From Winogradskyella bathintestinalis (GTDB lineage Bacteria; Bacteroidota; Bacteroidia; Flavobacteriales; Flavobacteriaceae): 64,000 nt of DNA. The notes beneath the pieces were generated by a model, which saw only the letters and a program-made list of their open reading frames with translations, did not search any database and was not told where the DNA came from. Below, piece by piece: positions 15,935 to 48,874 of the stretch (positions within the stretch are counted from its first letter, which is position 1; each line of letters begins with the position of its first letter). Position numbers and translations under genes: made by a program. The stretch covers positions 248,001 through 312,000 of the forward strand of contig NZ_JASDDK010000001.1 in NCBI RefSeq assembly GCF_030407435.1, read 5' to 3'.

Positions 15935-15976
15935 CAGATAAAGATGGTATTAAATTTAATCATCAAATATATTCAT

Positions 15977-16009
15977 TTATCATTTATGATAACCAACATA
16001 GTTATCATA
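15977..16009. promoter_or_regulatory. Overlapping palindromic operators between divergent genes
   Basis: Two perfect dyads overlap. TTATCAT-TT-ATGATAA occupies 15977-15992, and TATGATAAC-N7-GTTATCATA occupies 15985-16009, so they share the ATGATAA half. They sit between the leftward membrane-protein gene (start 15934) and the rightward XRE repressor gene (start 16044). This is the expected position for an autoregulated switch controlling both directions. Confidence 0.7.
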
Positions 16010-16043
16010 TATAACAACTTTGACTTGTCCATTAATCTAAAAA

Positions 16044-16277
16044 ATGACAGACAAAAAGAAGTTGCAAATAGCTATTGGTAAACGCATTAAAGAGTTGAGG
16101 GAAAGTAAAAACATCCAACAACAAGATGTTGCAGCAGCTTGTAATATAGAAAAGTCAAATTTTAGCCGAATTGAAGCTGGTAATACAAATCCAACAATTT
16201 ATACTTTAAGTAAAATTGCCAATAGATTGTCTATTACACTTTCTGAATTACTCTACTTTGAAAAAACTAAAAAATAG
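16044..16277 (+). CDS. XRE-family helix-turn-helix transcriptional regulator
   Basis: This 77-residue protein is a single lambda-Cro/C1-type HTH domain: IGKRIKELRESKNIQQQDVA, then AAACNIEKSNFSRIEAGNTN as turn and recognition helix, then TLSKIANRLSITLSELL. It has no second domain. Small XRE proteins of this kind act as DNA-binding dimers that control island or restriction genes. The dyads at 15977-16009 directly upstream are the probable operator. That would make it autoregulated and a regulator of the leftward hypothetical operon. Confidence 0.9.
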   Translation: MTDKKKLQIAIGKRIKELRESKNIQQQDVAAACNIEKSNFSRIEAGNTNPTIYTLSKIANRLSITLSELLYFEKTKK

Positions 16278-16346
16278 CTATTTATAACAATCTCTATCTA
16301 TTAGTTTGATTAAAAAATTGTCTAAAACGAGGTGTTTCAGCCTCAA

Positions 16347-16784
16347 TCACATTTGAGATTCATCTGAAAAACTATAATATCCATTCTTTGTAATTATTAA
16401 ATGGTCTAGCAAAGTAATATCAAGATAATTTCCTGCTTGTTTAAGTTTCTTTGTCAATATTAAATCGGCTTCACTTGGTTTTAAATTCCCTGATGGATGA
16501 TTATGAGCAACTATAATACTAGAAGCATTGCACTTTAGGGCTACACTATAAACCAATTTTGCATCTACCAAAGTTCCTGAAACACCACCCTTTGATAAAG
16601 GGTAAATTCCCAATACCTGATGATTTCTATTTAATAATAAGACTTTGAACTCTTCCTGATATTCAATAGTGTTCATTGACCAACAAGATTTCAATAATTC
16701 ATATGAATCTTTACTATTACTAATTTTAACCTTATGATTATTTCCTGAAGAGTAGGAAACTCTAATTTCTTTAATTGTATTCAT
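16347..16784 (-). CDS. RadC-like JAB (MPN+) domain protein
   Basis: The protein contains the JAMM metalloprotease-type signature AHNHPSGNLKPSEADL (H-x-H-P-S-G-x7-D, about residues 97-112), typical of the RadC/YeeS family, and is 145 residues long. That is short of full RadC because the N-terminal HhH region is absent. Such short RadC-like proteins are frequent on mobile elements and near defence genes, where their function is unsettled. Older claims of a DNA repair role are not supported. It precedes no obvious operon partner, although 16837-17283 lies 52 bases upstream on the same strand and could be cotranscribed. Confidence 0.88.
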   Translation of the reverse strand: MNTIKEIRVSYSSGNNHKVKISNSKDSYELLKSCWSMNTIEYQEEFKVLLLNRNHQVLGIYPLSKGGVSGTLVDAKLVYSVALKCNASSIIVAHNHPSGNLKPSEADLILTKKLKQAGNYLDITLLDHLIITKNGYYSFSDESQM

Positions 16785-16836
16785 TTTTAAAAAAAATTAA
16801 AATGCCCAAAACAAAATATTCTGGGCATTGATTAGA

Positions 16837-17283
16837 CTAACCTGCTATAAGAGGATGATTTTCTTCCTTTATAGCTTCACTTGAGACAAAATCATCAATA
16901 GTAGATTCACTTATGTCATCCTTTTTTGATGGTGTTTCAGGCTCATATTCATACCTATGAGATAATTCAATAATCTCACCTGTTTCCTTGATGGTATAAG
17001 AATATGGCTCACATTCCTTTTTCACAATTTTGCCAGGCATTTCAGTTCCAATAAGTGCCTCACAAGTTTCCTTGTCAAAGGTTGAACTTATACTGGCTTT
17101 TTTTGCAGTCGCATAAAAATTACCTGTTGATTTACTTTGAAGTAATTCCACTCCACCCTGAATAGTCAGAGCAAAGAATGTAGAACCATCTTCAGATTCT
17201 CTTTCATTGTAGTTAATAATTCGTACCATGTTTTTAATGTTTTGAGTTGAACTTTTGTTTTGTTCCAAAATGTCTTCTACCAT
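16837..17283 (-). CDS. Hypothetical protein, island accessory
   Basis: Two in-frame ATGs are possible: 17283 (148 residues) and 17229 (130 residues, starting MVRIINYNERESEDG). The shorter form looks better folded. The core has beta-strand character (FFALTIQGGVELLQ, YSYTIKETGEIIELSH) and the C-terminus is an acidic, disordered tail rich in S, D and E. No motif is recognised. Single-strand DNA-binding proteins share an acidic tail, but no OB-fold signature is convincing. It lies upstream of the RadC-like gene and divergent from the PIN-domain gene. Confidence 0.5.
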   Translation of the reverse strand: MVEDILEQNKSSTQNIKNMVRIINYNERESEDGSTFFALTIQGGVELLQSKSTGNFYATAKKASISSTFDKETCEALIGTEMPGKIVKKECEPYSYTIKETGEIIELSHRYEYEPETPSKKDDISESTIDDFVSSEAIKEENHPLIAG

Positions 17284-17497
17284 CAGCTAAAGAATAACAG
17301 CTATCACCTTGTTATAATTTTAGCCGACAAGATTATTTTTAGAATATATACTAAGGGGTGGGGTTTCCCTTTCGCAGAGGTTAGTGGGGGTGTTTAGCTA
17401 GGGTGCTTTGCATTTGCATTAGTGAACTCAGAAAAAAAATTTAAAAAATAAAATTCTTATTTAACTGTCTTATTTTACCTTTAAAAAAACATAAAAA

Positions 17498-20170
17498 ATG
17501 AAAATAGTTTTTGACACTAATGTTTGGTTAAATTTTGTTGAGAGATTGGAGTATGATTATATAGATAGCCTGTTAGGGAAAATTCATGCCAATGAGATTG
17601 AAATAATATTACCAATGGGTATTGAAACTGAGTTTAACCAAAAAATAGATAAAATAAGAAGCGAAGTAATTAAACAAGGGGTATTTAGCTTAGAAGACGT
17701 AAACTCAATTATTGAAAGTATAAAAACTATTTTCAGCAAATCAAATAAACTTAATTCAATTGAGTTAGGTTTGGCAGAATGGGTAAATAGCCAATTAGCA
17801 CCTAATCACAATACAAAAAACTGGGATGATACACTCATCCTAAATACACTTTTAAATCTACCAAAAAATTATTCCTTTTACTTTATTTCAAATGACTCTG
17901 ACTTTAGAGTAAGCAAAAAAGAATACAATTTACATCCAGATATAATAAAGAAGTTCAAAGACAAATCAATTGACTTAGAATTTTATATTGATTACGCACA
18001 ATTTTTTGGTCAGAAGAAGATAATTTCAAAGTCTAGTGAACTATCTTCCTATGAATTGTATAATTGGAAAACAATAAGGCTGAGGCTGAAAAATAAGAGT
18101 ATGTTAGACCAATTGACTTCTTCAATTGAATATTATTACAAAGAACTAAATTTTATTCCTTTATCGTATTTCAGTAACAATTATCCTTTTAATAATGGAA
18201 ATAATGGGCATACTTATTTTGAAGGGGCAACCTTAGTTACAAACAATAAGGTGCTTTTTGACTTCTTTAACAATTCACTTATTCAGAGAAAAGGTAAAAA
18301 GCCAAAAATCAATCTAAAAAACTTTAGTAATAGTCAAGACATTGAAAGGTTTAGAAATGTAATTAAAAGACTTAATGGAAATTTAGTAAATGGATTAAAG
18401 TTTGAAAGAGTCTCTATTAAAATCACATTAGAAAACAATAAGAAAACTGAAGAGAAATGTGATTGCCTGCAATGTACTCATTCACGTAGAGAGGTTAAAG
18501 ATTTGACAAAAAAATGTCAAATTGAAAAAAAAGACTCTCCAAAAAGGTTAATCCAAAAGGCATACTATCTCTTCAAAGTCAAACAGCTTAACGAAAGCTA
18601 TACCATAATTAACAATCTTTCAAAGACTATTAATAGAAAAGAATATCCTACCCTTTATTTTATACTTAATTACAACAAAGATATTCTAAAAAAGATGTGG
18701 TTTGAAGGGGATGATTTATTTACAAAAGAGAGAAACAAAATTAAGAGTGAAAACGAAAATAGTATTCTAAAAAAAGGTATTAGCTCAATAGTTGGCTATT
18801 TGATGTACACTAAATATTTTGATTATAAATATTTTGATTTAACCCAAGATTTAGAAAGTGTAAAGGGAAGATATTCCATTAATAAGGGAAATGGACAATC
18901 ATATATTTCAAATATAGAATGGAAAAACGTATTAAGGTGGGCAGAGCTTTTTCAAGTTGTTGAAGAAAATGGAATCTTTTTTGGCTTTTACCTCAACATA
19001 AAACGATTTGCCAAATATACTTTTAACCTTAGTCTTTATGCATCAGTAGATAATCAGGTAAAATATCCTATTTCAGAATATATGATTAAAACTACAATGG
19101 AATTTCTAACCATAAAAGACTATAAAGAAATTTTTTCTAAGTTATCAATTGACAGTTTAAATTATGAAGAAAATCAAAACAGTAAAATCTTTAAACTATT
19201 CTGTAATAAAATTGACTCTTTATCTCAAACAATAGAATTGGATGAAAATCATTCTTATTTGAAAATTCATTTAAAAGAAATTGAAAAAATTCTTTTTATA
19301 CAGTCATACCTCAATTTTAATAAAAAACAAGACAATATCATTTTTTCAAAAATCCTCAACATAGTTGAATTAGACCCAATAGAAGAATTGTTATCTGGAC
19401 TAAATCATTTTGTAAGCAAAAGAAAATCTAACTTATATACCTACAATGCAAAAAAATTAATCAGTTTCACACTAAACTCTGAGTTATCATTTAACACAAA
19501 CATCACTAATGTTTTTTCCTTACTAAAAGCCTTTCCTTCATTAAGCATTAATAAACCACAATTCAATCTGTTGATTGAAAGTGATATTGAATCTAAAACT
19601 GGATACTACAATTCATACATTTATTTGGAATTATATGAATTAGGAAGCCTTGAACAAAAAAATCAAGTTTTGGAAAAAGTATATAGTATTCTTGATTCTG
19701 ATTTAAGTTTTGACTTTAAATTGTACACATTTTTCACTTCTGAACTTATTATTGCAGAAAAAACAGAATATTTAGAAAAATTTAAAAATGAAGTTGAAAT
19801 AAGTCTTAGTAAATACAATAATCCACATCATAGAAATCGCCTTGACAAGCAAGTGAAGAAAATAGAAATTTTGAATTATTTTATTAACCATGTGTATCAA
19901 TTTTATGATGATACATATAAGATTTTGAAGATATTTAAAGGGCATTCCCCTTACTATGATTTTTTAGTTAACCCAAAAGGTTTTGAACTTAATAATATTG
20001 ATGTTCATTGGTTAGAGTATGCTAACAGAAATTCTTATTGGGCTATCAAAAAGATTCTTAAAAACCATCAGGCAATTAACCAGCATTTTATAGAAAGTAT
20101 CTTAAAAATAGACAATGATAATTATAAAAATGCCTATCTTGAGTTAATCTCAAATAGTGATAATGCTTAA
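17498..20170 (+). CDS. Large PIN-domain protein with long helical C-terminal region
   Basis: The N-terminal 170 residues form a PIN-like nuclease domain (DUF4935-like in style). Acidic residues are in the expected order: D6 in VFDTN, E43/E45 in GIETEFN, D110/D111 in NWDDTLI and D133/D135 in SNDSDFR. PIN domains are metal-dependent RNases. The following 720 residues are not recognised. They include a cysteine cluster C321-x-C323-x2-C326 with C340 that may bind zinc, and long helical repeats resembling TPR or HEAT solenoids. A TACCTTTA box at 17475-17482 may be the -7 element. The gene lies 134 bases upstream of another giant unrecognised gene on the same strand, and together they look like one system. 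Confidence 0.7.
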   Translation: MKIVFDTNVWLNFVERLEYDYIDSLLGKIHANEIEIILPMGIETEFNQKIDKIRSEVIKQGVFSLEDVNSIIESIKTIFSKSNKLNSIELGLAEWVNSQLAPNHNTKNWDDTLILNTLLNLPKNYSFYFISNDSDFRVSKKEYNLHPDIIKKFKDKSIDLEFYIDYAQFFGQKKIISKSSELSSYELYNWKTIRLRLKNKSMLDQLTSSIEYYYKELNFIPLSYFSNNYPFNNGNNGHTYFEGATLVTNNKVLFDFFNNSLIQRKGKKPKINLKNFSNSQDIERFRNVIKRLNGNLVNGLKFERVSIKITLENNKKTEEKCDCLQCTHSRREVKDLTKKCQIEKKDSPKRLIQKAYYLFKVKQLNESYTIINNLSKTINRKEYPTLYFILNYNKDILKKMWFEGDDLFTKERNKIKSENENSILKKGISSIVGYLMYTKYFDYKYFDLTQDLESVKGRYSINKGNGQSYISNIEWKNVLRWAELFQVVEENGIFFGFYLNIKRFAKYTFNLSLYASVDNQVKYPISEYMIKTTMEFLTIKDYKEIFSKLSIDSLNYEENQNSKIFKLFCNKIDSLSQTIELDENHSYLKIHLKEIEKILFIQSYLNFNKKQDNIIFSKILNIVELDPIEELLSGLNHFVSKRKSNLYTYNAKKLISFTLNSELSFNTNITNVFSLLKAFPSLSINKPQFNLLIESDIESKTGYYNSYIYLELYELGSLEQKNQVLEKVYSILDSDLSFDFKLYTFFTSELIIAEKTEYLEKFKNEVEISLSKYNNPHHRNRLDKQVKKIEILNYFINHVYQFYDDTYKILKIFKGHSPYYDFLVNPKGFELNNIDVHWLEYANRNSYWAIKKILKNHQAINQHFIESILKIDNDNYKNAYLELISNSDNA

Positions 20171-20192
20171 AGAAGACTTTGCTTAAAACCCT

Positions 20193-20288
20193 ATGAATTT
20201 AGACTTCAAAAACAATTCAATTTACTTGTTCCTCCACACAACAATAGAACATTTAAAAACAAATAACCCATCTATTTTGATGGATTAA
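20193..20288 (+). CDS. Possible 31-residue small ORF
   Basis: An ATG at 20193 opens a short frame ending at 20288, 16 bases before the next large gene. The product (starting MNLDFKNNSIYLFLHT) has no recognisable domain. It may be a leader peptide coupling translation of the downstream gene, a decayed gene, or chance. In so AT-rich a sequence, coding cannot be judged from composition. Confidence 0.25.
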   Translation: MNLDFKNNSIYLFLHTTIEHLKTNNPSILMD

Positions 20289-20304
20289 ACGAAACCTTTG
20301 AAAA

Positions 20305-23300
20305 ATGTCAAGAATAAATAATAGTCATAATCAATTCAAAGACTCTATTAGTTTAGGAAAAAAGAGTAATTCCCTAATTCCAAAAATAAAAAATTGGTGT
20401 TCGAATATAAAAATTGATTCAGAATATGGAGGGATGATGGGGGAAATGGGCTTACCTACAATGAATACTATCTCATGTACCAAATTTAGGGGAGATAGTG
20501 CCATGAACCTTGAATGGATTGCTCATGACTTTATTGTTGAGAATTGCCCAAATTGCAAGTATCATAATGAGTTAAACAAAAACAATTTTGGAAGAATTGT
20601 ACTCCAACAACATGAAGATAGAAATAGAAAAAAAGAGGAAGAAGAGTCACAAGAGTTAGAAATAATAAACCAATTAGAACAAAGGTTAAATGATGTTCTA
20701 AAAGACAAGGAAAAATTAAAAACTCCAGAAGTATCCATTTTAAAACTTCTTATTTCATTAAGAGAAAACCCTTCAAATATTAAGAAAAAAGCAAGTGAAC
20801 TATTTGAAGCCAGTAAGTTGTCTCCTTCATTCTTTAACTCTTTATCTTTAGATTATTTATCTATTTATTTAAAAGATGATAAAATAAATAATCTACTAAT
20901 TGATTCTTGTCTAAACATAATAGCACATAATGAAAATGTAATCTCAAATTACTTTCAAGAGAAAATAATTTCACTCATTGAAAATGAAAAGGCTGCTAAT
21001 CTATTTTTAAAAGTTTTGCCTTTTAAAAAATTAAATAAAGAGCAGGTATTTAATATTTCGCCTTATTTAATAAAAAATTATGATTTGAGTTCACTTGATA
21101 GATACAATCATTTTGAAAATCATTCACCTACAATAGTTTCTTTCTTCAACAATGTACACATAACATATTGCGAAGAATTTTTTTCTCTTTTCAAAAAAAA
21201 ATTACAAGAATTAAATTCTAATTTCAGAGCTAATACTGTATTAATTTTAAATCACCTCTATTCATTAAACTGTAACACAACAATCCCTTTAATAAAAGAT
21301 TTAATAAAATCGTTAGACCTTCAAGACTCAGATTTTCCAAAATCTGCTGATTTTATTATTTCAAATACTTTAGTTAAAATAACAAAATCACATGCTCAAA
21401 AAGTTTTTGATACCATTAATAACGAATTTGAAAAAATGACTATTGGAGGTAAAATTGAAGTATTTAGGTTTTATGAATTATATATAAATGACTCTAAAAA
21501 GAATACTAAAAGTACATACACATTAAATTTAATTAATCAACTTATCAAAATTTGTTTAGATAAAAACCCACCAGAATTAAAGAAAAAAGCAATAAACACA
21601 TTAGAAAATTTTAGTAGAAAAAATCCAGATATGATACTAAAAGATTTTGATAGTTTTATTGGGGTTTTAAGTAATTCCGTTATTGCAAAATCTACTTTTG
21701 AATGGTATAAAAAAGACTTAGATAAAGACACACTAACCTTTAATCCCTTAAAAGGAAAGAATGTTTATGATATAATTAATGAAGAAAATAAACTTGAACA
21801 TGAAATTCGTGAACTTAAAGGTATTCTTAAAAACTTATTAAAACATAATCCAACTAAACTTTATGAAAAGTTAATTGAAATTATCAGAAATATTGAAGAA
21901 AAGGACAAAAATGGTACACAACTAAAACTATTCTTTATTGAAATTTTAAGGGATGGTGTCAATGATTCTATTTTATTGACTGATATTTTACCAGATTTAC
22001 ATAGTTGGTTGTTAGACTTTAAGAATGTTTCATTAAGAGTACAAGCATTAAAGTTTATTGAAAAACTTTTATCAAATCATTTTAACATTGTTCCTCAAAC
22101 CATTTTTAGTTTACTAGAAATTTTCCTCAATGATAGTGACAATCTCATAAAAAAATACACTATTCTTTGCTATAAACAAATTCTGATTAATAAGAAAAGG
22201 ATAACTAATGAAGATACTAAAACTCTCCTGAACTTGTACAAAGACAAGTATGTGATTGTTCATAAAACTGCAACAGAAATAACTTATAAACTATTTGATT
22301 TATTGGATATTAAAGGTAGGCACATTCTTTTAGCATATTTACTTAACCTATTAGAGGTTTATCATACTGAAAAAGATAGAGATGTTGAATTTTGCAAAAA
22401 ATTATTCAAGCAATCAATGTATGTAAGTAAGGGGGTTAATCCAAACCATTTTGATAAAACGGAGAAAGTATTGATAGAGAAATACTTATCTGAATATTGT
22501 AAGAATGGGGATTATTATTCCTGCCTAAACTCTTTAAAAGAACTCAATGCATTTAGGAAACAGAATATTTACTACAATGCTTTATGGTTAGAGCATTCCC
22601 TTTCTTTTCTTAATAAAACCACACCAAATAAATTTGAACCTTTCATTAGTTCTGATAGAGGGGAAATATATGTAGAAATTCTCTCATTGAATCTGATTGA
22701 TTTATTACCTTTTAAAGAGGTCATGAAAGAAAACATCAAAAAGAGATGTCTTGCAAATATTGATTTATTTATTAATGATTTAAACTTCACACTAATTGTT
22801 TTTTCTTTTTACAATCTAAACGAAGATGTTTTAGAGCTTACTAATTTCATCAAAGAAAAGATTCCAAGAATCCAAAAACTCAATTATTTCTTTAATAAAA
22901 TTGATGAATTCTCAAGGCTTGCAAACCTCACTTTAATTAAGCATAATAATTTATCTAATTCTGAAATAAGGGAATTAATTGACAGTCAAGAAATTTCAAA
23001 AAATAAGGTTATTGCAATTCAAGAAGCAATAACCAAAAAACAATTTGCTCTTTTCTACAATTTTGAAATTAAAAATATCAATGTTGTTTTAAATGAAAAA
23101 AACTTGTTATTATCTAAATATGAAAAACTTGAGAGCCTTTCATCTAACTCAAAAGATGAAGGTTTTTTCTTTAGCTTAAAATCACTAGGGATTGGTGTTT
23201 TATTTCTACTTGAATGGTCTAAAGAAGTATTAGAGGGCAATGTAAATTCTAATACTAAATTAATTGCTTGTAAAACCAATATAGCTCTTATAGATATTGA

Positions 23301-24477
23301 TAAATTCAGTCATATCCCATTATTAAAAGAACAAGTTAAAAACATTATAGAATCTATAAATATTATTAAAAATTTTAATTCAGAAATAATTATAGAAATA
23401 GTTAATAAGTATGCTGAAATAAAAACTCCTTTTATATATCATTTAAGAAAAAATGAAAAAAGAATTTATACTAAAGGCGTTAATGAAAAAACACCTGAAG
23501 ATAAGGAAGTTAATATAGTTTCATTGGAACTTTATATTAGAGATAATCCTTGGGCAAATCCACAAATACTTAAATCGAAAGAGGTATATATTATTAGAGG
23601 TATTGTGAAATTAAATAAAATTCCTTCTGGTTACAGAACTTTAAAAATTCAACCATCAACAACCAGTTCAAATATTTTTGAACTAAATATTGAGGAAATA
23701 GAATTAAAGAATGACAAATTACAATATGAGGTTAATGGTAGTATTCTTTTTAAATATGCTCAAAATAGTTTAGATGAGTTAATTTCAATTAAACTAATTC
23801 CATTTTTTTTAAATAAGAAAGATAAATTATGTCCAACAATCATAGGGTATGATGAGTTAATAACAAAAGTGTTAGATGAAAATAATGAAATTTTTCAAAC
23901 AGGTTTTAAAATGATGGATAAAAAAAGTTTTGAACTATATAATGACCCCTTAATAAAACAATTAGATAATGAAGAAAAAAATAATTTCTTTACAATACTT
24001 AATGGCATTTTTAACTATCAAGGCTTTTGTTTACAAAGTGGTAAATACAAAGGTGTAAAAAATTGTAAAGAAGATGAATTTAGAGATGAGCTTATTCAAC
24101 ATTTAACTGCAAATCCAAATATAGGTGAAAATATATCTAAAGAAGCCCACAATGCAGGTGGCAGGGTAGAAATTACTTTTAAAGGAATTCCAACAGAATT
24201 AAAAGTAGAAACAAAATTATCTGAAAGAAATAAGATTATTGAAAAATATGGCAATCAACCACTTGCTTATTCAAGTGGCAACTCTAAATTAGTTTCAATT
24301 GTTTGTGTTTTAGACTTAACAGAGAAAAAATCACCTCCAAGTCCTGCAATAAATAATATAATAATAAACACAATGAAAACTCATGGTTTTCAAACTAATG
24401 ATTCAGAATTTAATCCATTCCAAGTATTTATTTTTATAGATGGAAATTCAAAAAACCCAAGTGATTATAGTAAATAA
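20305..24477 (+). CDS. Giant helical-repeat protein with Cys/His N-terminus and PD-(D/E)XK-like C-terminus
   Basis: The 1390-residue protein is unrecognised overall. Residues 32-87 carry a cysteine/histidine arrangement (C32, C58, C81, C84, H87; ending ENCPNCKYH) that may bind zinc. About 100-1100 is a long series of alpha-helical pairs resembling HEAT/ARM repeats. The C-terminal 140 residues have the order expected of a PD-(D/E)XK nuclease: E1256/E1258 in an initial helix, E1289 in GGRVEITF, E1298-x-K1300 in TELKVE, then Q1318-x3-Y1322 (QPLAY), as in Cas4/RecB-type nucleases. A HEAT scaffold with nuclease, next to a PIN RNase gene on a mobile island, suggests a defence system. This is inference. 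Confidence 0.65.
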   Translation: MSRINNSHNQFKDSISLGKKSNSLIPKIKNWCSNIKIDSEYGGMMGEMGLPTMNTISCTKFRGDSAMNLEWIAHDFIVENCPNCKYHNELNKNNFGRIVLQQHEDRNRKKEEEESQELEIINQLEQRLNDVLKDKEKLKTPEVSILKLLISLRENPSNIKKKASELFEASKLSPSFFNSLSLDYLSIYLKDDKINNLLIDSCLNIIAHNENVISNYFQEKIISLIENEKAANLFLKVLPFKKLNKEQVFNISPYLIKNYDLSSLDRYNHFENHSPTIVSFFNNVHITYCEEFFSLFKKKLQELNSNFRANTVLILNHLYSLNCNTTIPLIKDLIKSLDLQDSDFPKSADFIISNTLVKITKSHAQKVFDTINNEFEKMTIGGKIEVFRFYELYINDSKKNTKSTYTLNLINQLIKICLDKNPPELKKKAINTLENFSRKNPDMILKDFDSFIGVLSNSVIAKSTFEWYKKDLDKDTLTFNPLKGKNVYDIINEENKLEHEIRELKGILKNLLKHNPTKLYEKLIEIIRNIEEKDKNGTQLKLFFIEILRDGVNDSILLTDILPDLHSWLLDFKNVSLRVQALKFIEKLLSNHFNIVPQTIFSLLEIFLNDSDNLIKKYTILCYKQILINKKRITNEDTKTLLNLYKDKYVIVHKTATEITYKLFDLLDIKGRHILLAYLLNLLEVYHTEKDRDVEFCKKLFKQSMYVSKGVNPNHFDKTEKVLIEKYLSEYCKNGDYYSCLNSLKELNAFRKQNIYYNALWLEHSLSFLNKTTPNKFEPFISSDRGEIYVEILSLNLIDLLPFKEVMKENIKKRCLANIDLFINDLNFTLIVFSFYNLNEDVLELTNFIKEKIPRIQKLNYFFNKIDEFSRLANLTLIKHNNLSNSEIRELIDSQEISKNKVIAIQEAITKKQFALFYNFEIKNINVVLNEKNLLLSKYEKLESLSSNSKDEGFFFSLKSLGIGVLFLLEWSKEVLEGNVNSNTKLIACKTNIALIDIDKFSHIPLLKEQVKNIIESINIIKNFNSEIIIEIVNKYAEIKTPFIYHLRKNEKRIYTKGVNEKTPEDKEVNIVSLELYIRDNPWANPQILKSKEVYIIRGIVKLNKIPSGYRTLKIQPSTTSSNIFELNIEEIELKNDKLQYEVNGSILFKYAQNSLDELISIKLIPFFLNKKDKLCPTIIGYDELITKVLDENNEIFQTGFKMMDKKSFELYNDPLIKQLDNEEKNNFFTILNGIFNYQGFCLQSGKYKGVKNCKEDEFRDELIQHLTANPNIGENISKEAHNAGGRVEITFKGIPTELKVETKLSERNKIIEKYGNQPLAYSSGNSKLVSIVCVLDLTEKKSPPSPAINNIIINTMKTHGFQTNDSEFNPFQVFIFIDGNSKNPSDYSK

Positions 24478-24574
24478 ATTATGAAAATCAATTTATAAGA
24501 TGACTGCAAAAGAAAGAACTAACCTATTGGTAGAAAAAGCTATTGAGATTTTTAAATTATAAAAACCAGAAATT

Positions 24575-25204
24575 ATGCCAGAAATTAATCCAAATGAAGA
24601 AATTGAAAAATTATTATTTCTTATACAAACAAGTAAGGAAAGAATTGATAGACTTTTTTCTGATAAATTTAATATTGAATCAAAGGCGGGTGTCCTTATA
24701 GGCTTTGGAGCAATATTTTTTACATTCAAAATTGCCTTAGAAGGTACAAATGAATCGTTTTGGTTCATCCCATTACTTTTCTTTTTAGTTGGTCTTATTT
24801 TAATAATTTTTGTAATTAAACCTAATAAATTTGGAGTAGGAACAAAAGAACAAGATTATGATGAACTATTTGAGTTAGATAGAGTTAAAATGTTAACCAA
24901 AATTTTAAAAGATAATAGAGCGTCAATAATTAAAAACACAAAAAATCTAAAAATCATTAAACTTTGCTATGGTTGGTCTGTGATTTTCATAATTATTTCT
25001 ATACTTTTATCTTTCTTCCTTAATGGAATAGACCAAAACCACAACAATAACCAAAAACAAGAAAAGATGATATTCAACTACTATTGTTCTGATTCTCCTA
25101 ATGAAGATGAGGAGAATAAAACAGAAAATCCAAAAATTGATATATCTCCATCATCAGAAGATGATATAGATGTGCAAAGTGATGATGAATCAGATAAAAA
25201 ATAA
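24575..25204 (+). CDS. Small membrane protein, possible third component of the PIN/HEAT cluster
   Basis: The 209-residue protein has an amphipathic N-terminal helix and then three hydrophobic segments: about residues 40-60 (GVLIGFGAIFFTFKIAL), 65-86 (FIPLLFFLVGLILIIFVI) and 130-152 (GWSVIFIIISILLSFFL). A highly acidic disordered tail ends in DDIDVQSDDESDKK. Soluble helix plus paired membrane helices is the layout of SLATT-like and related membrane effectors of defence systems, but no family motif is certain. It follows the giant gene by 97 bases on the same strand and is closed by a terminator, so it probably shares that transcript. Confidence 0.6.
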   Translation: MPEINPNEEIEKLLFLIQTSKERIDRLFSDKFNIESKAGVLIGFGAIFFTFKIALEGTNESFWFIPLLFFLVGLILIIFVIKPNKFGVGTKEQDYDELFELDRVKMLTKILKDNRASIIKNTKNLKIIKLCYGWSVIFIIISILLSFFLNGIDQNHNNNQKQEKMIFNYYCSDSPNEDEENKTENPKIDISPSSEDDIDVQSDDESDKK

Positions 25205-25213
25205 GAGTATAAA

Positions 25214-25244
25214 AAAAGCAGGATTAATAATTAATCCTGCTTTT
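25214..25244. terminator. Bidirectional terminator
   Basis: A 14-base perfect stem (AAAAGCAGGATTAA at 25214-25227 with its complement at 25231-25244) has a three-base loop. It is flanked by adenines on the left and thymines on the right. It separates the rightward membrane-protein gene (stop 25204) from the leftward small gene (stop 25268) and can serve both. Confidence 0.82.
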
Positions 25245-25490: not shown

Positions 25491-27137
25491 TTATTTTAAA
25501 TTATTCTCGTATAGACTAAAACTTTTAAGTTTATCTTTTATTGCATCAACTTTAGGTTTAATAACAAAAGGTAGTGAATTATCATTTATTCTAAGAATTA
25601 ATCTATCAGTATATAAAGCAAATAAAACAATATTATCAAAGTTATCACTAGAAGTACTTGTTGAATCTAGAACTATATAGCCTATACCTTTATTTTGTTT
25701 ATATAATTCATTAGATGAAATTTCAGCTACATAAATAAATTTAGGCATAATATAATCAACAATTGCTTCTCTATAACTTTTAGGTAATGTTTCCTCATTC
25801 ATTATTTCTCTCTTAAATGACCTTGAAGATGTTAAAAACAACCTTAAAATAATTTTGTCAGGACCTTCTCGATATCCATATATTTCGTTTTCTAGCAATT
25901 CATAAACCAGTTGTCTAGCTCTAACTATGTCTAAATATATCTTGGGGTACAGAGGAACAATACAGCCATGAATTTTGGCATCATTCATCTTTGTAGAATA
26001 AGAACATGGTTCATCTAAAGTACTCTTTTGATATGGTGGCTGATTATCGTCTATGATAATAAATTTCTTTTTAGTAATATCTAAACTATCAGAAACACTA
26101 ATATTAGCTTTTTTAAATTTATGATTTATTGAAATATTATATGGCTTGTTACAATAATCTATTTCGTTTGAATCCAACCTCTCATGACCAATCATTAATA
26201 CTGCATGGAAATCATTATTTGATTCTCTTCTCACAATTGTAAGAACAGGAATACCTGATTCTACGTAATCATTAATAATATAAGGTAACTTATTTTTAAA
26301 TTTATTAATACTATAATATTTAGAACCAAAACCAAATTTTCTCAAAGTATACCCTATTTGTCTTGGTGATAAACCTTTTGACGGAACTTGTCTTTCATAG
26401 GAAACCCTTTTTAAAACACTTAATATTGTAGATGGCAACACCTGTCTGTAATAACTATATTTACCGCCAAAGTATTCCATAAGACTCCAAATAGATGTTT
26501 CTGAGCAGGTATGTACTTTCCCATCTTGTGCTGAATGAGGAAATCCTTCTGTGGTTAGACTTACGCCTTTTATTAAAGAACTACTTTTTAACTTTGTAAT
26601 TATACAATTTGAGTCTATTAATGCTTTTGGATTTATGAAACTTCTACCAACTCTTTTTCTGTCTGTTGGTCTTAAAATAAAAAAACCTAAAAAGATATTT
26701 TCCTCCTGTAATTTATTCCTAAATTCACTTTCAGTAAAATCATCAGTAGTCAAATCATAATCATATATAGATATTCTTATACAATTTTTATTGATAGTTC
26801 TATTCAAAGTTGAATAATAAGAATAATAAGCATCTCTATATAGTTTATCAGTATAAGGATATTCAATTAAAAGCTTTAGTTCAGGCCTTAAATGCTTTAA
26901 ATATGATTGAAGGGAATCAATATATCTAGATTGACTCTCATCAAATCCAATAATATTATATTTATTAATGAAGTTATCTAATATTGTTTTTTCTGGAAAA
27001 TAAAGTTTGGTGTCTTCTTTGTACTCCTTTTTTAATTGATTAACAGTAGCTATATCATAAACTGCATATTTTAAATTTTCATTATCAATTAATTTACTAC
27101 TATCAGAATTATTGGAAGTTGTATTATTGTTTTTCAA
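25491..27137 (-). CDS. C39-like (papain-fold) cysteine protease domain protein
   Basis: The frame starts at TTG 27137; no nearby in-frame ATG precedes the conserved part. Residues 195-370 fit a C39-like peptidase: glutamine Q204, nucleophile C211 in VHTCSETSIWSLMEYFGG, histidine H311 in DFHAVLMIGHE, and an aspartate in FIIIDDNQPPY. The flanking N-terminal 190 residues and C-terminal 150 residues are unrecognised. There is no ABC transporter domain and no membrane segment, so it is not a bacteriocin exporter. It forms a two-gene unit with the Gly-Gly-Glu small protein. A role in cutting that partner, or in cell suicide, is possible but unproven. Confidence 0.65.
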   Translation of the reverse strand: MKNNNTTSNNSDSSKLIDNENLKYAVYDIATVNQLKKEYKEDTKLYFPEKTILDNFINKYNIIGFDESQSRYIDSLQSYLKHLRPELKLLIEYPYTDKLYRDAYYSYYSTLNRTINKNCIRISIYDYDLTTDDFTESEFRNKLQEENIFLGFFILRPTDRKRVGRSFINPKALIDSNCIITKLKSSSLIKGVSLTTEGFPHSAQDGKVHTCSETSIWSLMEYFGGKYSYYRQVLPSTILSVLKRVSYERQVPSKGLSPRQIGYTLRKFGFGSKYYSINKFKNKLPYIINDYVESGIPVLTIVRRESNNDFHAVLMIGHERLDSNEIDYCNKPYNISINHKFKKANISVSDSLDITKKKFIIIDDNQPPYQKSTLDEPCSYSTKMNDAKIHGCIVPLYPKIYLDIVRARQLVYELLENEIYGYREGPDKIILRLFLTSSRSFKREIMNEETLPKSYREAIVDYIMPKFIYVAEISSNELYKQNKGIGYIVLDSTSTSSDNFDNIVLFALYTDRLILRINDNSLPFVIKPKVDAIKDKLKSFSLYENNLK

Positions 27138-27200: not shown

Positions 27201-27231
27201 AAAACCCTTATACAAAAAGTATAAGGGTTTT
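27201..27231 (-). terminator. Rho-independent terminator
   Basis: AAAACCCTTATAC (27201-27213) pairs with GTATAAGGGTTTT (27219-27231) around five adenines. Thymine runs on both strands allow use in both directions. It lies eight bases past the stop of the leftward DUF3871 gene. Confidence 0.8.
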
Positions 27232-27239
27232 TTTCCAAC

Positions 27240-28268
27240 TCAACTTAAAAACCAAGAGTACTTGGAATCCCCATTGAGAGTTTGTGCCAATCCATTTGAA
27301 AAATCAAAAGCATTGACAGTTCTATCCAGAAAAGAATCTATATAAGAACTCTTATTTGCTGATGTAAAAAGGTTATAGACATTCCATAAGTTGATGTTTC
27401 CATTTTCATCTTTACAATAGCTCTTATCCTCATAATAATCCTTTGCAATAGTATTCATTTGTCTATCTGCAAAATCCATTTGTGGTAATCCTTTTCTTTG
27501 GTCTTTAGGCAAATAATTATACAATCTTGTTTTACCTATGAGTTGAGCAAACTGATGTTCAGTTAAACTCTGTTGAGTGAGTTCTCTCATTGCTTTTAAA
27601 TGAGTTTCTGCTTCATAACCATTAATTACTTCAGTAATCTTATGCTGAAGTTCTTCATACCCTCCTACTCTCATTTCTGAAGTAAAACCATCTGAAGAAA
27701 TACAAAGGTTACAGCATACCATATTTTGAAATCCAATAAAGAATTTAAACTTTTCATAAGTCTTCTTACTGTAAAGGTTCTCATGGTTGTAAGCTCTAAC
27801 TCCACCCACCATCAAGGAAAGCGTATTTCCATTAATAGTCTCTGTTATTGTGGGTACTCTTATCACAAATGCCATTCTCTCAAAATATTGGGTTTTCTCA
27901 TGTTCTAGTAACTCTTTGGCTGATTTGTGAATAGCATCACTGGTTCTACCCTTTATCTCATGACTTACTCTTATTTCAGGAAGATCTATCTGCTGATGGT
28001 TAAAGGCATTACCAACACACTCTTGTGCTATCTCAATAAATTCCTGATGTGCTATGGTTCTTTCATTGTCCTTGGCAAATACAGGAATGATATTGTCCTG
28101 CCTTAAATGAGAGAGGTTAACCTCTTTTGTGTTAGCCTCAATGAATGGGTTGATTTTATACTTATTTCTTTCTGATGGTACTCTCAATTCTGTAACAGAT
28201 TGTTTTATACCATCAGAAATAGAAGATACATTATCGTCCTGACTGTGGTGTACTTTTATTAATTCCAT
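27240..28268 (-). CDS. DUF3871 family protein
   Basis: The 342-residue protein matches the DUF3871 family often found on Bacteroidota mobile elements, with characteristic segments such as PEIRVSHEIKGRTSDAIH, LSLMVGGVRAYNHENLYS and FFIGFQNMVCCNLCISSDG. The family resembles DUF932-type proteins of phages and plasmids, which are linked to DNA replication or recombination, but its biochemical role is not established. Its start overlaps the end of the RecA-like ATPase gene by 38 bases, indicating translational coupling and joint function. A terminator follows its stop. Confidence 0.82.
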   Translation of the reverse strand: MELIKVHHSQDDNVSSISDGIKQSVTELRVPSERNKYKINPFIEANTKEVNLSHLRQDNIIPVFAKDNERTIAHQEFIEIAQECVGNAFNHQQIDLPEIRVSHEIKGRTSDAIHKSAKELLEHEKTQYFERMAFVIRVPTITETINGNTLSLMVGGVRAYNHENLYSKKTYEKFKFFIGFQNMVCCNLCISSDGFTSEMRVGGYEELQHKITEVINGYEAETHLKAMRELTQQSLTEHQFAQLIGKTRLYNYLPKDQRKGLPQMDFADRQMNTIAKDYYEDKSYCKDENGNINLWNVYNLFTSANKSSYIDSFLDRTVNAFDFSNGLAQTLNGDSKYSWFLS

Positions 28269-29103
28269 TTGAACTAAAATTTTCTGGTTTAACTAAATTT
28301 TCTAATTGTTGTTTTTTGCTCTGATATTGAGCATTCAATGATTGTTGAAATTGTGGAAATTCTTTATAAAGTTTCATCAATTCACTTATGGATAAACACT
28401 CATTAATACGTTTTAAGACATCTTCTTGTGAACTTGGTGAATTACACCATTCCAAGATTCTTTTTCCTGTGGCTGTGCTTATCATGAACTCTGGTTTATC
28501 ATTGAACAGATTGGTTCTGTCCTTACTTGCAGTTGCAAAATGTTTTGAGTCAATATCAAAAACTAATGTAAATTCGTATTCCACACCATCTCTTTGCACA
28601 GCTTTCAGTCCTACCTTTTCAGGCACATACTTTCCATTCTTTTGATTCAGCACATAATCTTGTTTGGTTCTCATAGTGGCAATAAAATGAGCTGGTGATT
28701 GTAAAATCTTATCTACAAAGGCTTTTTGTCTAGGTGTTACCTTGTTCCAATTTGTGAAACTGTTTCCTGGCAACTTACTATGGAAATCTATTAATTCATC
28801 CCAACAGTGACTTGTGCTATCCACGATAATAACTTCCATTCCTGCCTCAAGACAAATATCAATAGCTTGAATATACTTCTCAGGTGTATAAGGTGGTTGC
28901 ATATTTAGCACACTGTAATTACCTAAATGTGCATAAAGGTCTGAACTTCCATTTTCAGTATCTATGACAGCTACTTTTGAAAGATTATCATTGGTTAATC
29001 CTTTTGCAAGTAAAAGGGCTGACATTGTTTTGCCAGCCCCTGCACTTCCTTGTAAAGCCATTTTAATCTTGGCTTGTTTTCTTTCTGATTTTCTTAATTT
29101 CAT
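28231..29103 (-). CDS. RecA-like ATPase (phage Sak4-type)
   Basis: The protein (290 residues) starts with basic residues and a Walker A motif (QGSAGAGKT, about 18-26). A Walker B-like strand is EVIIVDSTSHCWDE near residue 95, and a motif with TMRTKQDYVL follows. The core resembles phage nucleotide-binding proteins of the Sak4 group, minimal RecA-like single-strand annealing recombinases. The C-terminal 60 residues are helical and glutamine-rich. In Bacteroidota islands this gene is commonly paired with DUF3871, as here. Its promoter region carries a long inverted repeat at 29127-29224. Confidence 0.75.
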   Translation of the reverse strand: MKLRKSERKQAKIKMALQGSAGAGKTMSALLLAKGLTNDNLSKVAVIDTENGSSDLYAHLGNYSVLNMQPPYTPEKYIQAIDICLEAGMEVIIVDSTSHCWDELIDFHSKLPGNSFTNWNKVTPRQKAFVDKILQSPAHFIATMRTKQDYVLNQKNGKYVPEKVGLKAVQRDGVEYEFTLVFDIDSKHFATASKDRTNLFNDKPEFMISTATGKRILEWCNSPSSQEDVLKRINECLSISELMKLYKEFPQFQQSLNAQYQSKKQQLENLVKPENFSSNGINKSTPQSGR

Positions 29104-29126
29104 AATTATAAGTTTTAAAGTTTATT

Positions 29127-29224
29127 TTCCATCAAGGGAAATCCTCTGATAAAAGAGTACAACCTTGAAAATTAATTTATATATAGATATGTAATCTTTA
29201 GTGAGAGGAAATCCACTGATGGAA
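29127..29224. repeat. Imperfect inverted repeat upstream of the ATPase operon
   Basis: Two 21-base arms, 29127-29147 (TTCCATCA...ATCCTCT) and 29204-29224 (AGAGGA...TGATGGAA), are complementary at all but about four central positions. They lie 56 bases apart, just upstream of the ATPase start at 29103. A partial third copy (GGAAATCC) follows the right arm. The spacing suits a looped operator or an origin-like site. No gene lies in this stretch. Confidence 0.5.
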
Positions 29225-29241
29225 ATCCTTCCCATAAAAAA

Positions 29242-29263
29242 AGAGGAACATTTCTGCTCCTCT
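29242..29263 (-). terminator. Rho-independent terminator
   Basis: AGAGGA (29242-29247) pairs with TCCTCT (29258-29263), and on the minus strand a run of seven thymines follows. It lies directly after the stop (29271) of the winged-helix gene. Confidence 0.7.
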
Positions 29264-29270
29264 TCTATAA

Positions 29271-30020
29271 TTATTGCATTTGATTTCTTTTATTAGAATC
29301 TTTTGGAATTTTTTTCCTTCTTAATCCAGATTTAAGATATTTATCTATATCATGCTTAATATCCCATTCTATCTCTTCATCTAAGAATATTTCAGGGATT
29401 AACTCAATGATTCTAGCAGTATCTAATGAATAATATGTAACCTGTCTCTGTTTATTCTCAATTAGAGAGCTTACAACTTTAGATTCTAAAAAGCCTAATT
29501 CCTTGAATCTTTTAATAATTGTAACTGCTCTATCTTTTTTTATTCCCATCTCCTCAAATATGGTTGGAAATGAGAGAAAAAATGGAACAAAACCAAAATA
29601 TTCATATTTCATTAATAGGAACTCAAATAAAACCCTTTCATCACAAATGAAAAATTTACTGTTATAGTTAATAAATCTATTTAGACGCAAACCGAAAATA
29701 GAGTTATAGTCAACAACAATTAAGTTATTTCCCTCACTATCACATTGGAATAAATCGTCTTGTTTCAGTACTATCTTTGAAAACTCACTTAATAATTGTC
29801 CATTTTCAATACCTCCAAAACCATCATTCCTTACAGGAATTAATAAATATTTGACTCCAGTTTGAAGATTTTCTTCCTTAGTTTTTTCAAAATCATAAAG
29901 AGGAATTTCAATAATAGTGTCTTCATCAAATATGTCTTCGTGATTTTCTTCTTGATGGATTGCTTCATTTTGTTCAATACAATCCTCTGGGTTAACATAC
30001 CCAAACTTTAATTTTTCCAT
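29271..30020 (-). CDS. Winged-helix DNA-binding protein, replication-initiator-like
   Basis: The ATG at 30020 (MEKLKFGYVNPEDC) is chosen; the longer frame to 30086 would start with TTG and add a phenylalanine-rich, unlikely N-terminus. The protein has 249 residues. The segment at about 155-215 (LSFPTIFEEMGIKKDRAVTIIKRFKELGFLESKVV) is a winged helix-turn-helix like that of plasmid and ICE replication or regulatory proteins. The C-terminus is very basic (LRRKKIPKDSNKRNQMQ). The N-terminal 70 residues are acidic. It is divergent from the HNH nuclease gene across about 200 bases. Its function as initiator or regulator is not resolved. Confidence 0.6.
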   Translation of the reverse strand: MEKLKFGYVNPEDCIEQNEAIHQEENHEDIFDEDTIIEIPLYDFEKTKEENLQTGVKYLLIPVRNDGFGGIENGQLLSEFSKIVLKQDDLFQCDSEGNNLIVVDYNSIFGLRLNRFINYNSKFFICDERVLFEFLLMKYEYFGFVPFFLSFPTIFEEMGIKKDRAVTIIKRFKELGFLESKVVSSLIENKQRQVTYYSLDTARIIELIPEIFLDEEIEWDIKHDIDKYLKSGLRRKKIPKDSNKRNQMQ

Positions 30021-30218
30021 AATTTTTGAAAAATTTAAATTAAAAAAATAGAAAAACTCATCTTTAGGCTTAAAGAAATAAGCCAAAGTTCAAAAGAATG
30101 AACTTGAAAAACTCATTAGGTTGGTAAGTAGTACAAAATTAATAAAAATGTTTAATATTCATGTTTTTCTTAACTGATTTTCAGAAATATCTGAATCATT
30201 TATATAGATTTGTGATTA

Positions 30219-31202
30219 ATGACTGAGGTAATTAATAAATACATTCATCTATTTGAGACCTTAAATAGAGGCTATAATAAAGGTTTGGGGAAAGCTCCGC
30301 ATAAGCCTATATTACTGTTATCAATTATTCAACTTATCCAAAGAAAAGAGATTGTTTCAAATAGAATTTTCATAACACCAGAACTCTTATTAGAATTTAA
30401 GAACATTTGGAATGTTATGGTTGACACGCCTCATGTTCCAAATTTTGCACTTCCATTTTTCCATATGAGAAGTGAATCTTTTTGGCATCTAGTTATTAAA
30501 CCAGGAATGGAACTAATTGTAACAAAATCAAAAAGCATTAAAAGTTTCAAAAATTTAAAAGAATCTATTGCTTTTGCTGAAATTGATAGGCATCTATTTG
30601 AATTGTTATCTGATAGTTCAACAAGAACAATTTTAGAACAGGTTATTATTCAAAAATATTTTAATAATACAGAGTCAAATTATTCAATAATCCTCTCAAA
30701 TGTCAATAATGAAGTATTGAAAATTGAGAGTCAAATACTGAATGAACCTAAAGCTGAATATCAAAATCACTTAAAAGAGTTAAGGACATCATTAGATGAT
30801 GATGAATACGAAGAAGAATTATTTATTAGAGGTGGATTATTTAAAAAGACCATCCCAAAAATCTATAATCACTCTTGTTGTATATCAGGAATGAGGATTG
30901 AATCATCACAAAATGCTCAAATGATAGATGCTTGTCACATTATACCATTTAGCATTTCAAATGATGATACAATCCCAAATGGTATATCCTTATCCCCAAA
31001 TTTACATAGAGCTTTTGATAGAGGCTTGATTACCATTAACCAAGATCACATAGTTAGAATATCTCCTACGGTTACTGAAAATGAAACTATGTTTTCTTTG
31101 TCTCAGTTTAATGGAAATCAAATTATGCTTCCTGAAAAAGCTTCTTGGTATCCCTCTCCAGAATCACTTCAGTGGCATAACAAAGAAATTTTTGCTCTCT
31201 AA
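30219..31202 (+). CDS. HNH restriction endonuclease, phosphorothioate-DNA-binding type
   Basis: The 327-residue protein has an N-terminal domain with the GKAPHKPILLLSI motif (about residues 23-36) shared with the sulfur-binding-domain nucleases related to ScoMcrA. Its C-terminal HNH domain runs over DACHIIPFS, then ISLSPNLHRAFDRGLITI, with the catalytic histidine in CH-II and Asn/His in NLH. Family members cut DNA carrying phosphorothioate or other modifications, acting as type IV restriction enzymes. There is no dnd gene in the window, consistent with a stand-alone modification-dependent enzyme. It converges on the integrase gene, and the stop codons overlap by four bases. Confidence 0.75.
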   Translation: MTEVINKYIHLFETLNRGYNKGLGKAPHKPILLLSIIQLIQRKEIVSNRIFITPELLLEFKNIWNVMVDTPHVPNFALPFFHMRSESFWHLVIKPGMELIVTKSKSIKSFKNLKESIAFAEIDRHLFELLSDSSTRTILEQVIIQKYFNNTESNYSIILSNVNNEVLKIESQILNEPKAEYQNHLKELRTSLDDDEYEEELFIRGGLFKKTIPKIYNHSCCISGMRIESSQNAQMIDACHIIPFSISNDDTIPNGISLSPNLHRAFDRGLITINQDHIVRISPTVTENETMFSLSQFNGNQIMLPEKASWYPSPESLQWHNKEIFAL

Positions 31203-32410
31203 GTATTAAACTTTTTGTTGAGCTTAATCATCTCCTCACTAATCTTTCTCTCCACAATTTGACCATAATGCTCCTGAGTGGTTTGCATTTTAGCATGACC
31301 TAATAATTTAGAAACTATTTCCATAGGAACATCATTATAAAGCAATACAGTAGTTGCAAAAGTCTTTCTGGCAATATGGTGAGTCAGATTGATTTTAATT
31401 CCTGTCACATCAGCTATTTCTTTTAAATAAGCATTGAACTTAGGATTTGATATTCTAGGAAATACAAAATCTAATTCTTCTTGATGGTACTTTTCCATAA
31501 TCAATTTTGCCTGTGGCATTAATGGAACTTTATAACTTCTTGAAGTTTTAACTCTATGAACAACCAACCAAAGGTTTCCATCAAACTCAACAATAATATC
31601 AGACTTTTTTAAGGCAATCATTTCTTTAAAAGCCAATCCAGTATAACAACAAAATACAAACATGTCTTTGATTTGTTGCAACCTCTTAATTTCAAAAGTC
31701 TTATTCTCCAACCTTAATAGCTCCTCTTGTGATAGGTACACAATCTCTTTCTTTATTCTCCTTGCTTTATAGAGCATAAATGGGTCTTTATCCAAATAGT
31801 CCTCTGCAATAGCATATTTAATTGACCTTCTAAATCTTTGAATGACTTTATTTAAAGTTATCTGAGCAAAGTTCTTTTCAGTTTTAAGATAGTATTCATA
31901 ATGGTCAATAAAACTACTTTTTACAGTTGAAAGTTTTATATCCTTAGTTTTATATTTCCATCTAATAAAGCTTTTAAGATGTTTACCATAGGCTATATAT
32001 TTTTTGTGAGTATCATTATTTAACTCTTTACCCACTAGTCTTTCTAAGTATTGTAAAAACAGTCCATAAACTTCAACTACTCCAACATCTGTTTTAACAG
32101 TTTCTCCTTTGTACTGTCTAAAAATATCTTCTACATCAAAACTCACTTGATTAACTTGAAGCATTAAAAAAGCCTGATTAATTTGAGATATAATCAGGCT
32201 TAATTGTGTGTTTAGAAAGTTGTGTTCTTTTTCTGGTGGTTTGACTAATTGGTTTTTGCTATCCCAATTTTCTGGATAAATATAGTACCCTGTTGCAAAC
32301 TCCTTCCTTTGTTTTTTATAAGTAATTCTACAATAAAGAGGAGAAGTATTGTCTTTCTTTTTCCTGCTTTTGTAAATTACAAATAAAATAGTCACCCTAT
32401 TTATCTGCAT
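31199..32410 (-). CDS. Tyrosine recombinase (integrase) of the island
   Basis: The 403-residue protein has the Bacteroidota layout: an N-terminal arm-binding domain (TILFVIYKSRKKKDN, YPENWD), a SAM-like core-binding domain and a C-terminal catalytic domain. The HxxR motif (HHIARKTFATT), the LLGHAKMQTTQEHY histidine and the tyrosine nucleophile are present. The first catalytic arginine is replaced: the motif normally reading TGLR is TGLAFKEM. Such a substitution is known in IntDOT-like enzymes. It lies 134 bases from the right 182-base repeat, as expected for the enzyme that integrated this island into tRNA-Asp. Confidence 0.93.
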   Translation of the reverse strand: MQINRVTILFVIYKSRKKKDNTSPLYCRITYKKQRKEFATGYYIYPENWDSKNQLVKPPEKEHNFLNTQLSLIISQINQAFLMLQVNQVSFDVEDIFRQYKGETVKTDVGVVEVYGLFLQYLERLVGKELNNDTHKKYIAYGKHLKSFIRWKYKTKDIKLSTVKSSFIDHYEYYLKTEKNFAQITLNKVIQRFRRSIKYAIAEDYLDKDPFMLYKARRIKKEIVYLSQEELLRLENKTFEIKRLQQIKDMFVFCCYTGLAFKEMIALKKSDIIVEFDGNLWLVVHRVKTSRSYKVPLMPQAKLIMEKYHQEELDFVFPRISNPKFNAYLKEIADVTGIKINLTHHIARKTFATTVLLYNDVPMEIVSKLLGHAKMQTTQEHYGQIVERKISEEMIKLNKKFNT

Positions 32411-38840: not shown

Positions 38841-39872
38841 ATGTATATCACAGTAACACCTCAAAAATTAGGTAGCAATTATTCACAAAGCTCAGCGGAT
38901 TTTGTAGGCTATTTAGAGAAGGAAAACCAAGGGTTGGAACAATACGAAATGGAACACTTTTTCAATCAATATGGCGATGAGATTTCCGCTGAAGAAGTGG
39001 TCAAAGAAATTGATGGAAACACGGCAAAATTGAAAAAGAAAGAACCTAAATTTTATTCCATAACGGTCAGTCCTTCCAAGTATGAATTGAACAGATTACA
39101 GAACAGTCGTGAAGATTTAAAAACCTACACTCGTGAGCTAATGAAAGATTATGTTGCCAGCTTCAATCGGGAAATCAATGGACGACCTATATCAATAGAC
39201 GACATAAAATATTACGCTAAAATTGAACATCAAAGAACCTTCAAGGGTACGGACTTTCAGATAAAAGAAAACCAACCTTTCGCCACAAAAATACTTCAGC
39301 TCAAAACGGATATCCGAAATATTCAAGAAGGACGAGCTGAAGGGAATATTAAGAAAATGGAAAAGGAAATTGCCAAACTGGAACGCCAAGCGCCACATCA
39401 ACAAAACGGAAAACGGATAGTTCAGGGAATGCCGAAAGCAGGAAACCAAAGTCACATTCATATTATCGTTAGCCGAAAGGATGCTTCAAATTCTATATGC
39501 CTTTCCCCAGGAAGTAAGCACAAAGCATCCGAAGTAGAGATGCACGGAAAAAAAGTGAAGCGTGGTTTTGATAGAGATACATTTTTCGCGAAAGCGGAAA
39601 AAACATTTGATAAGACATTTGGATATAAGCGCAATTACGCAGAGACCTACAAAGCTAAAAAGACCTTTGTAAAGAACCCAAACCTATATTTTTCAGCATT
39701 GATGAAATTGCCAGCCAATGAAAAAGCATTGGCTTTTAAAATGATAAGTAAATCAGGATTGCCCATAGTGCCGAGTATTCCAGTAAGTCAGGCACAAATA
39801 GCGCTTCGAGTTTTTAAGCGATTAAGACGTGGCATAGAGGTGGCCATCAAATCAAGTTCAATAGGAATCTAA
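38841..39872 (+). CDS. MobB-type relaxase (DUF5712)
   Basis: The 343-residue protein resembles the MobB / DUF5712 relaxases of flavobacterial conjugative elements: N-terminal MYITVTPQKLGSNYSQSS, a mid region with YAKIEHQR, and a histidine pair in QSHIHIIVSRKD (about residues 203-214). The pair would coordinate the metal next to the nicking tyrosine. A tyrosine near the N-terminus (Y14 or Y27) could be the nucleophile. It would nick oriT and lead the strand into the recipient. It is in an operon with the BfmA-like protein and, three bases on, the coupling protein. Confidence 0.8.
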   Translation: MYITVTPQKLGSNYSQSSADFVGYLEKENQGLEQYEMEHFFNQYGDEISAEEVVKEIDGNTAKLKKKEPKFYSITVSPSKYELNRLQNSREDLKTYTRELMKDYVASFNREINGRPISIDDIKYYAKIEHQRTFKGTDFQIKENQPFATKILQLKTDIRNIQEGRAEGNIKKMEKEIAKLERQAPHQQNGKRIVQGMPKAGNQSHIHIIVSRKDASNSICLSPGSKHKASEVEMHGKKVKRGFDRDTFFAKAEKTFDKTFGYKRNYAETYKAKKTFVKNPNLYFSALMKLPANEKALAFKMISKSGLPIVPSIPVSQAQIALRVFKRLRRGIEVAIKSSSIGI

Positions 39873-39874
39873 GT

Positions 39875-41455: not shown

Positions 41456-41576
41456 CGTTAAACACCTTAATTCATTGGGCTAAACGGTTAATAAATGATA
41501 ATCTTAAAATTATCTTAACCCTTTTTTTGCAACGTGAAATTATACCAATATCTTTAACACTTATTTTTACCACCAA

Positions 41577-46174: not shown

Positions 46175-46186
46175 AACTAAAAGAAT

Positions 46187-47032: not shown

Positions 47033-47092
47033 AAAAATAATATAAAATAAATGCCAACTGCATAATAGAAACTAAAACCAACCAAGAAATTT

Positions 47093-48838: not shown

Positions 48839-48874
48839 TTATCTTTATTTCCAAATTGCCAATTTATTTAATTA

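Follow-up and report, generated by a model that had tools for sequence, protein, structure and literature searches.

A probable fused, single-gene variant of Olokun in the cargo slot of a Bacteroidota integrative island

The window analysed here is a 64,000-nucleotide stretch of Winogradskyella bathintestinalis DNA (contig NZ_JASDDK010000001.1, positions 248,001 to 312,000), and the gene in question occupies positions 20305-24477 of it on the + strand. This gene is very probably a single-gene, fused form of Olokun (OloA, OloB), carried as exchangeable cargo of a Bacteroidota integrative island, with the PIN protein gene before it and the membrane protein gene after it being separate cargo. A preliminary description of the same DNA, made from its letters alone, had grouped these three genes into one new system. 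Its observation is sound and its claims of grouping and novelty are overstated: what the locus carries is a known system in fused form, with a PIN candidate that is independent of it. The genes and sites concerned are the following, in window coordinates.

17498-20170, + strand: PIN protein gene, probably separate cargo (890 aa; N-terminal PIN domain, Cys cluster at residues 321-340, remainder without family)
20305-24477, + strand: fused OloA-OloB-like (Olokun) gene (1390 aa)
20305-22974, + strand: OloA-like half (residues 1-890; conserved C32, C58, C81 and C84, then a long helical solenoid-like region)
22975-24477, + strand: OloB-like half (residues 891-1390)
24157-24270, + strand: PD-(D/E)XK-like core (residues 1285-1322: E1289, E1298, K1300, Q1318, Y1322; 6/6 sequences)
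24575-25204, + strand: membrane protein gene (209 aa; no relative found, weak family matches only)
25214-25244: terminator-like hairpin (scored on both strands)
25491-27137, - strand: 548-aa cargo gene without family

The three + strand open reading frames (890, 1390 and 209 aa) are real and lie where they had been placed, and the terminator said to close them was found as the hairpin listed above. The gaps between the three genes measure 134 and 97 bp.

Olokun, with its proteins OloA and OloB, was reportedly named by Millman et al. in 2022. When the C-terminal 500 aa of the fused protein were scanned alone with PADLOC, LmuA (4e-15) and OloB (5.1e-10) were matched, and an OloB match was also obtained when the own genome was searched (1.6e-9). 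The OloB model matches all five C-terminal halves scanned; both LmuA and OloB are matched by all 4 members of the C-terminal-half alignment, and the Bacteriovoracales protein behaves likewise. In a Chlorobiaceae metagenome-assembled genome (MAG), the first of two neighbouring genes matches PADLOC OloA (1.1e-62, model positions 10-577 of 596) and the second PADLOC OloB (9.5e-49, model positions 17-553 of 556). Comparison of the OloA-type halves as profiles, with the window and G316 on one side and the other three on the other, gave 100% probability (E 1.3e-40) over 765 columns at 14% identity. In control searches at loose thresholds, OloB matched 1/14 control genomes (E <= 1) and OloA 4/14 (E <= 10). 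At the level of sequence, homology of the OloB half is direct, and that of the OloA half is established only through relatives. Since the two genes of the Chlorobiaceae relative match OloA and OloB, the window gene is best regarded as a variant of Olokun in which both parts form a single gene, and the earlier statement that no named system fits does not hold. The OloA-type half precedes the OloB-type half in the fused protein, in the same order as in Olokun. However, the window and its sister island in genome G876 have one fused gene where 4/4 other relatives have two neighbouring genes, and the OloA half of the window is too diverged for the PADLOC model; the gene is therefore taken as a variant of Olokun rather than a typical member.

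With the fused protein as query, four of 395 genomes of the phylum were matched, namely its own, G316, G159 (Gracilimonas amylolytica) and G366 (the Chlorobiaceae MAG). A scan of genome contigs returned three relatives, G159 and G366 again and a Bacteriovoracales MAG, and is not exhaustive, because G316 and G876 were not returned. The two-gene relatives thus number four (G316, G159, G366 and the Bacteriovoracales MAG), and in all four the adjacent genes overlap, by 4, 11, 56 and 8 nt in mechanical calls of open reading frames. One Rhizobium and two Martelella plasmid fragments were left out before counting. On the Rhizobium plasmid pWSM1274_1 (L012 10001-10372), a remnant-like stretch corresponds to no more than the C-terminal ~130 residues of the 1390-aa protein. 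In Gracilimonas (L010), the two-gene relative adjoins type I modification-like genes and an AbiE-like pair, as judged by eye. No relative was found in a phage search with the fused protein, in viral contig searches with the PIN, fused and membrane proteins, the PIN alignment and two OloB-type alignments, in a plasmid search with the Chlorobiaceae OloA, or in PHROGs at E 0.01.

Several results weigh against the reading of a fused Olokun flanked by separate cargo. Scanned at full length in PADLOC, the fused protein returns LmuA only (1.8e-14) and OloB is not reported, and on the C-terminal half of the window protein LmuA outscores OloB (4e-15 vs 5.1e-10). The OloA model matches only two of the five OloA-type proteins scanned, those of the Chlorobiaceae MAG (1.1e-62) and G316 (7.3e-10), with no match to the first halves from Gracilimonas, the Bacteriovoracales MAG or the window, and its search of the own genome gave no match. 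Sequence searches of the nuclease-like domain against Pfam, NCBIfam and the PDB produced only chance-like matches, none of which supports a nuclease fold; PDB searches by sequence in general gave either no match or chance-like ones at E 0.2 or worse. In addition, co-transcription of the PIN, fused and membrane genes is possible because no + strand terminator-like site was found in the gaps between them, and only one relative of the PIN protein is known.

The LmuA matches could also be explained by a Lamassu-type effector, with the C-terminal part belonging with LmuA and the protein working, or having once worked, with an SMC partner. LmuA (PADLOC PDLC03853) is the best PADLOC match for the window protein and for two of the two-gene relatives, and the similarity, at 4e-15, joins the last ~165 residues of the fused protein to the C-terminal part of the model. 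However, this match is confined to the final 175 of the 655 model positions, a full OloA/OloB pair exists among the relatives, and no LmuB match was obtained among the 8 window proteins scanned, which include the four genes of the cargo slot. Such an effector is highly improbable in our view. Lamassu membership was rejected on the missing LmuB in those 8 proteins, the neighbours of the relatives having been only partly scanned, and the LmuA homology of the end stays. A passage of a review describes the LmuA effector domain as N-terminal and the docking part as C-terminal (PMC10586767), an arrangement at odds with an effector at the C-terminus; because the match here is at the model end, Lamassu is a weak guide to mechanism.

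The E..E..ExK..QxxxY order reported for the C-terminal end was borne out, with E/D1289, E1298, K1300, Q1318 and Y1322 present in 6/6 sequences, and so was the N-terminal Cys cluster of the 1390-aa protein, whose C32, C58, C81 and C84 are kept in the same number. The order E/D, ExK, QxxxY is that of PD-(D/E)XK nucleases with a QxxxY motif, and the pattern (D/E)-x(n)-(D/E)xK with QxxxY is present in all six sequences. A PD-(D/E)XK-like nuclease at the C-terminal end is presumed from this conserved pattern together with the OloB/LmuA homology. Alternatively, the protein could be an Olokun relative whose C-terminal domain is not a DNase, being inactive or having another activity, as the absence of a family or solved-structure match for the domain would allow. 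Such an outcome is unlikely, given that the five residues are kept in every sequence and that the C-terminal nuclease-like segment has the lowest nonsynonymous divergence (dN) of five segments (0.034).

Further evidence for a fused Olokun as exchangeable cargo comes from the sister island. Among 378 genomes of the family, the fused protein was found only in its own genome and in G876, where the copy is likewise fused and shares 88% protein identity across 1390 residues. Fusion through sequencing error was rejected because G876 has the same open frame. Compared with the G876 locus (L022), the gene shows 91% DNA identity over a stretch that opens 4 bases ahead of the ATG and closes 1 base past the stop codon; ungapped identity drops from ~0.9 to ~0.3 at both of its ends and is ~0.2-0.4 outside, and the island backbone DNA around it is 66-80% identical. 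In the window, the cargo slot is occupied by the genes for the PIN, fused, membrane and 548-aa proteins. In G876 it contains the fused gene together with a small Xre-like gene, what by eye are type III modification and restriction subunits, and genes for proteins of 284 and 201 aa; DUF3871 directly follows the fused gene. The fused gene has been exchanged, with gene-exact limits, between related islands. Its divergence between window and G876 (dN 0.058, synonymous divergence dS 0.278, dN/dS ~0.2) points to purifying selection. Codons 310-709 (window 21232-22431) carry 14 third-position differences from L022 in 400 codons, vs 192 in the other 990, and 0/2000 shuffles reach so low a window; this mosaic suggests recombination within the fused gene. 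The 201-aa gene of G876 (L022 8380-8985) lies 42 bp upstream of the fused gene and was not seen beside the window copy.

If the three genes formed one new system, as the preliminary description proposed, the PIN RNase and the membrane protein would work together with the solenoid nuclease. The genes are adjacent on the same strand, with no + strand terminator-like site in the gaps and a hairpin at the end, and G+C content is 25-26% in all three, as it also is in the 548-aa gene. However, a co-occurrence check that had been set beforehand went against the grouping. Five Olokun relatives with both halves (G876, G316, G159, G366 and the Bacteriovoracales MAG) were examined in loci of 20 kb each, or 14.5 kb for the MAG, and no PIN or membrane-protein match was found near any of them (tblastn E <= 1). 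The PIN profile search was negative in the four whole Olokun genomes (G876, G316, G159 and G366) and the membrane protein was absent from five whole genomes (these four and G823); as a control for the PIN search, the single PIN protein finds its relative in G823 at 9.4e-267. The absence of the membrane protein weighs less, because no relative of it was found anywhere. Conversely, the 20-kb locus of the PIN relative in G823 contains no fused-protein or membrane-protein match at E <= 1, and the sister island carries the fused gene without PIN or membrane genes. A three-gene system was rejected on this co-occurrence (0/5 loci, PIN 0/4 genomes, membrane 0/5), a small sample on which the rejection rests, and we consider it very unlikely. 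The remainder of the original interpretation stands: a PIN domain is present, a long helical protein does carry a PD-(D/E)XK-like pattern, and the island cargo is of defence type. A composite cassette, in which fused Olokun would be wired to the PIN RNase and the membrane protein so that one trigger leads to DNA cleavage, RNA cleavage and membrane damage, deserves very little credence.

The PIN protein is most likely a candidate RNase that would act on its own and be held back until infection. A Pfam scan of the full 890 aa gave only PIN_4 (0.0033, below its cut-off), and the first 170 aa alone pass the Pfam cut-offs for PIN_12 (33.0 vs 32) and PIN_4 (23.9 vs 21.9), the best PIN_12 E-value of two members being 1.5e-10. 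In genome draws that may overlap, the protein was found only in its own genome among 296 of the order and among 395 of the phylum, and in its own and G823 among 397 of the family. The G823 protein is 49% identical over its full length (9.4e-267 by single-protein search). The acidic set earlier described as intact is kept in this sole relative at D6, E43, E45, D111, D133 and D135, and D110 is Q there; the reported CxCxxC cluster (C321, C323, C326) is retained in full, as is C340. Plasmids and phages yielded no relative of the PIN protein, and a PIN_8 search of 9 genomes returned one unrelated-looking 560-aa protein, which was not used. A VapBC assignment was rejected because the arrangement of a small antitoxin gene beside a small toxin has no counterpart here, the protein having 890 aa and the flanking same-strand open reading frames 45 aa (upstream) and 31 aa (downstream). 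According to one source, DS-3 is a one-protein PIN defence system and DS-5 a PIN protein with shown defence, and changes of catalytic residues abolish defence in both (PMC13092281). The window protein resembles DS-3 as a stand-alone PIN protein without evident antitoxin, but differs in that its PIN domain is N-terminal, the two being compared by description and not by sequence.

The three membrane helices claimed for the 209-aa protein agree with its hydrophobic stretches at ~37-56, 58-89 and 125-155 (19-residue hydropathy windows). No relative of it was found in plasmids, viral contigs or the five searched genomes, and a further search matched its own genome only. By eye, Cys and His residues of the 548-aa cargo protein (25491-27137, - strand) are arranged like those of C39/papain-like proteases, and it has weak relatives on three plasmids; its gene is not present in the sister island of G876. 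Repeats in the cargo slot are limited to imperfect A+T-rich two-copy matches.

The mobile island of the preliminary description was confirmed by a tyrosine integrase, RadC, DUF3871, AAA_24 and the second island with related backbone DNA. Its features outside the slot are the following.

15963-17448, - strand: island backbone left of the slot (75-80% DNA identity to L022)
15963-16261: Xre-like gene, left backbone
16347-16784, - strand: RadC (3e-39)
16837-17283, - strand: 148-aa gene, left backbone
27230-32410, - strand: island backbone right of the slot (66% DNA identity to L022 over 27230-28407)
27240-28268: DUF3871, right backbone
28231-29103: AAA_24, right backbone
30219-31202, + strand: HNH gene between AAA_24 and the integrase
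31199-32410: tyrosine integrase, right backbone

A second block at 38841-50245 of the window contains DUF5712, a TraG-like coupling protein, a DNA methylase and ResIII pair, and RES-domain, GmrSD_N and Schlafen AlbA_2 genes. Over 347 bp, the GmrSD_N gene is 70% similar in DNA to one of the genes at the locus of the PIN relative (L017).

The mechanism of Olokun is listed as unknown in one source (PMC12926258) and the system is said in another to be not thoroughly characterised (PMC12592470). Titles and abstract openings disclosed no mechanistic study of Olokun and no fused form, the subscription literature lying mostly outside that search. For the fused protein, we propose that the OloA half, with its Cys4 site and solenoid, would sense a phage component and restrain the OloB half, and that on sensing, the PD-(D/E)XK-like end would cut DNA, with failure of either the phage or the infected cell as the outcome. 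This scheme has about an even chance of being correct.

The occurrence of Olokun as a natural single chain points to a one-to-one complex in which OloA and OloB act jointly. Two related islands share the fused gene with gene-exact limits, which suggests that this unit is self-sufficient. Separately, the PIN protein may lead to a family of single-gene RNase defences. Moreover, with the fused form, expression, structure determination and mutagenesis of a poorly characterised system require only one protein.
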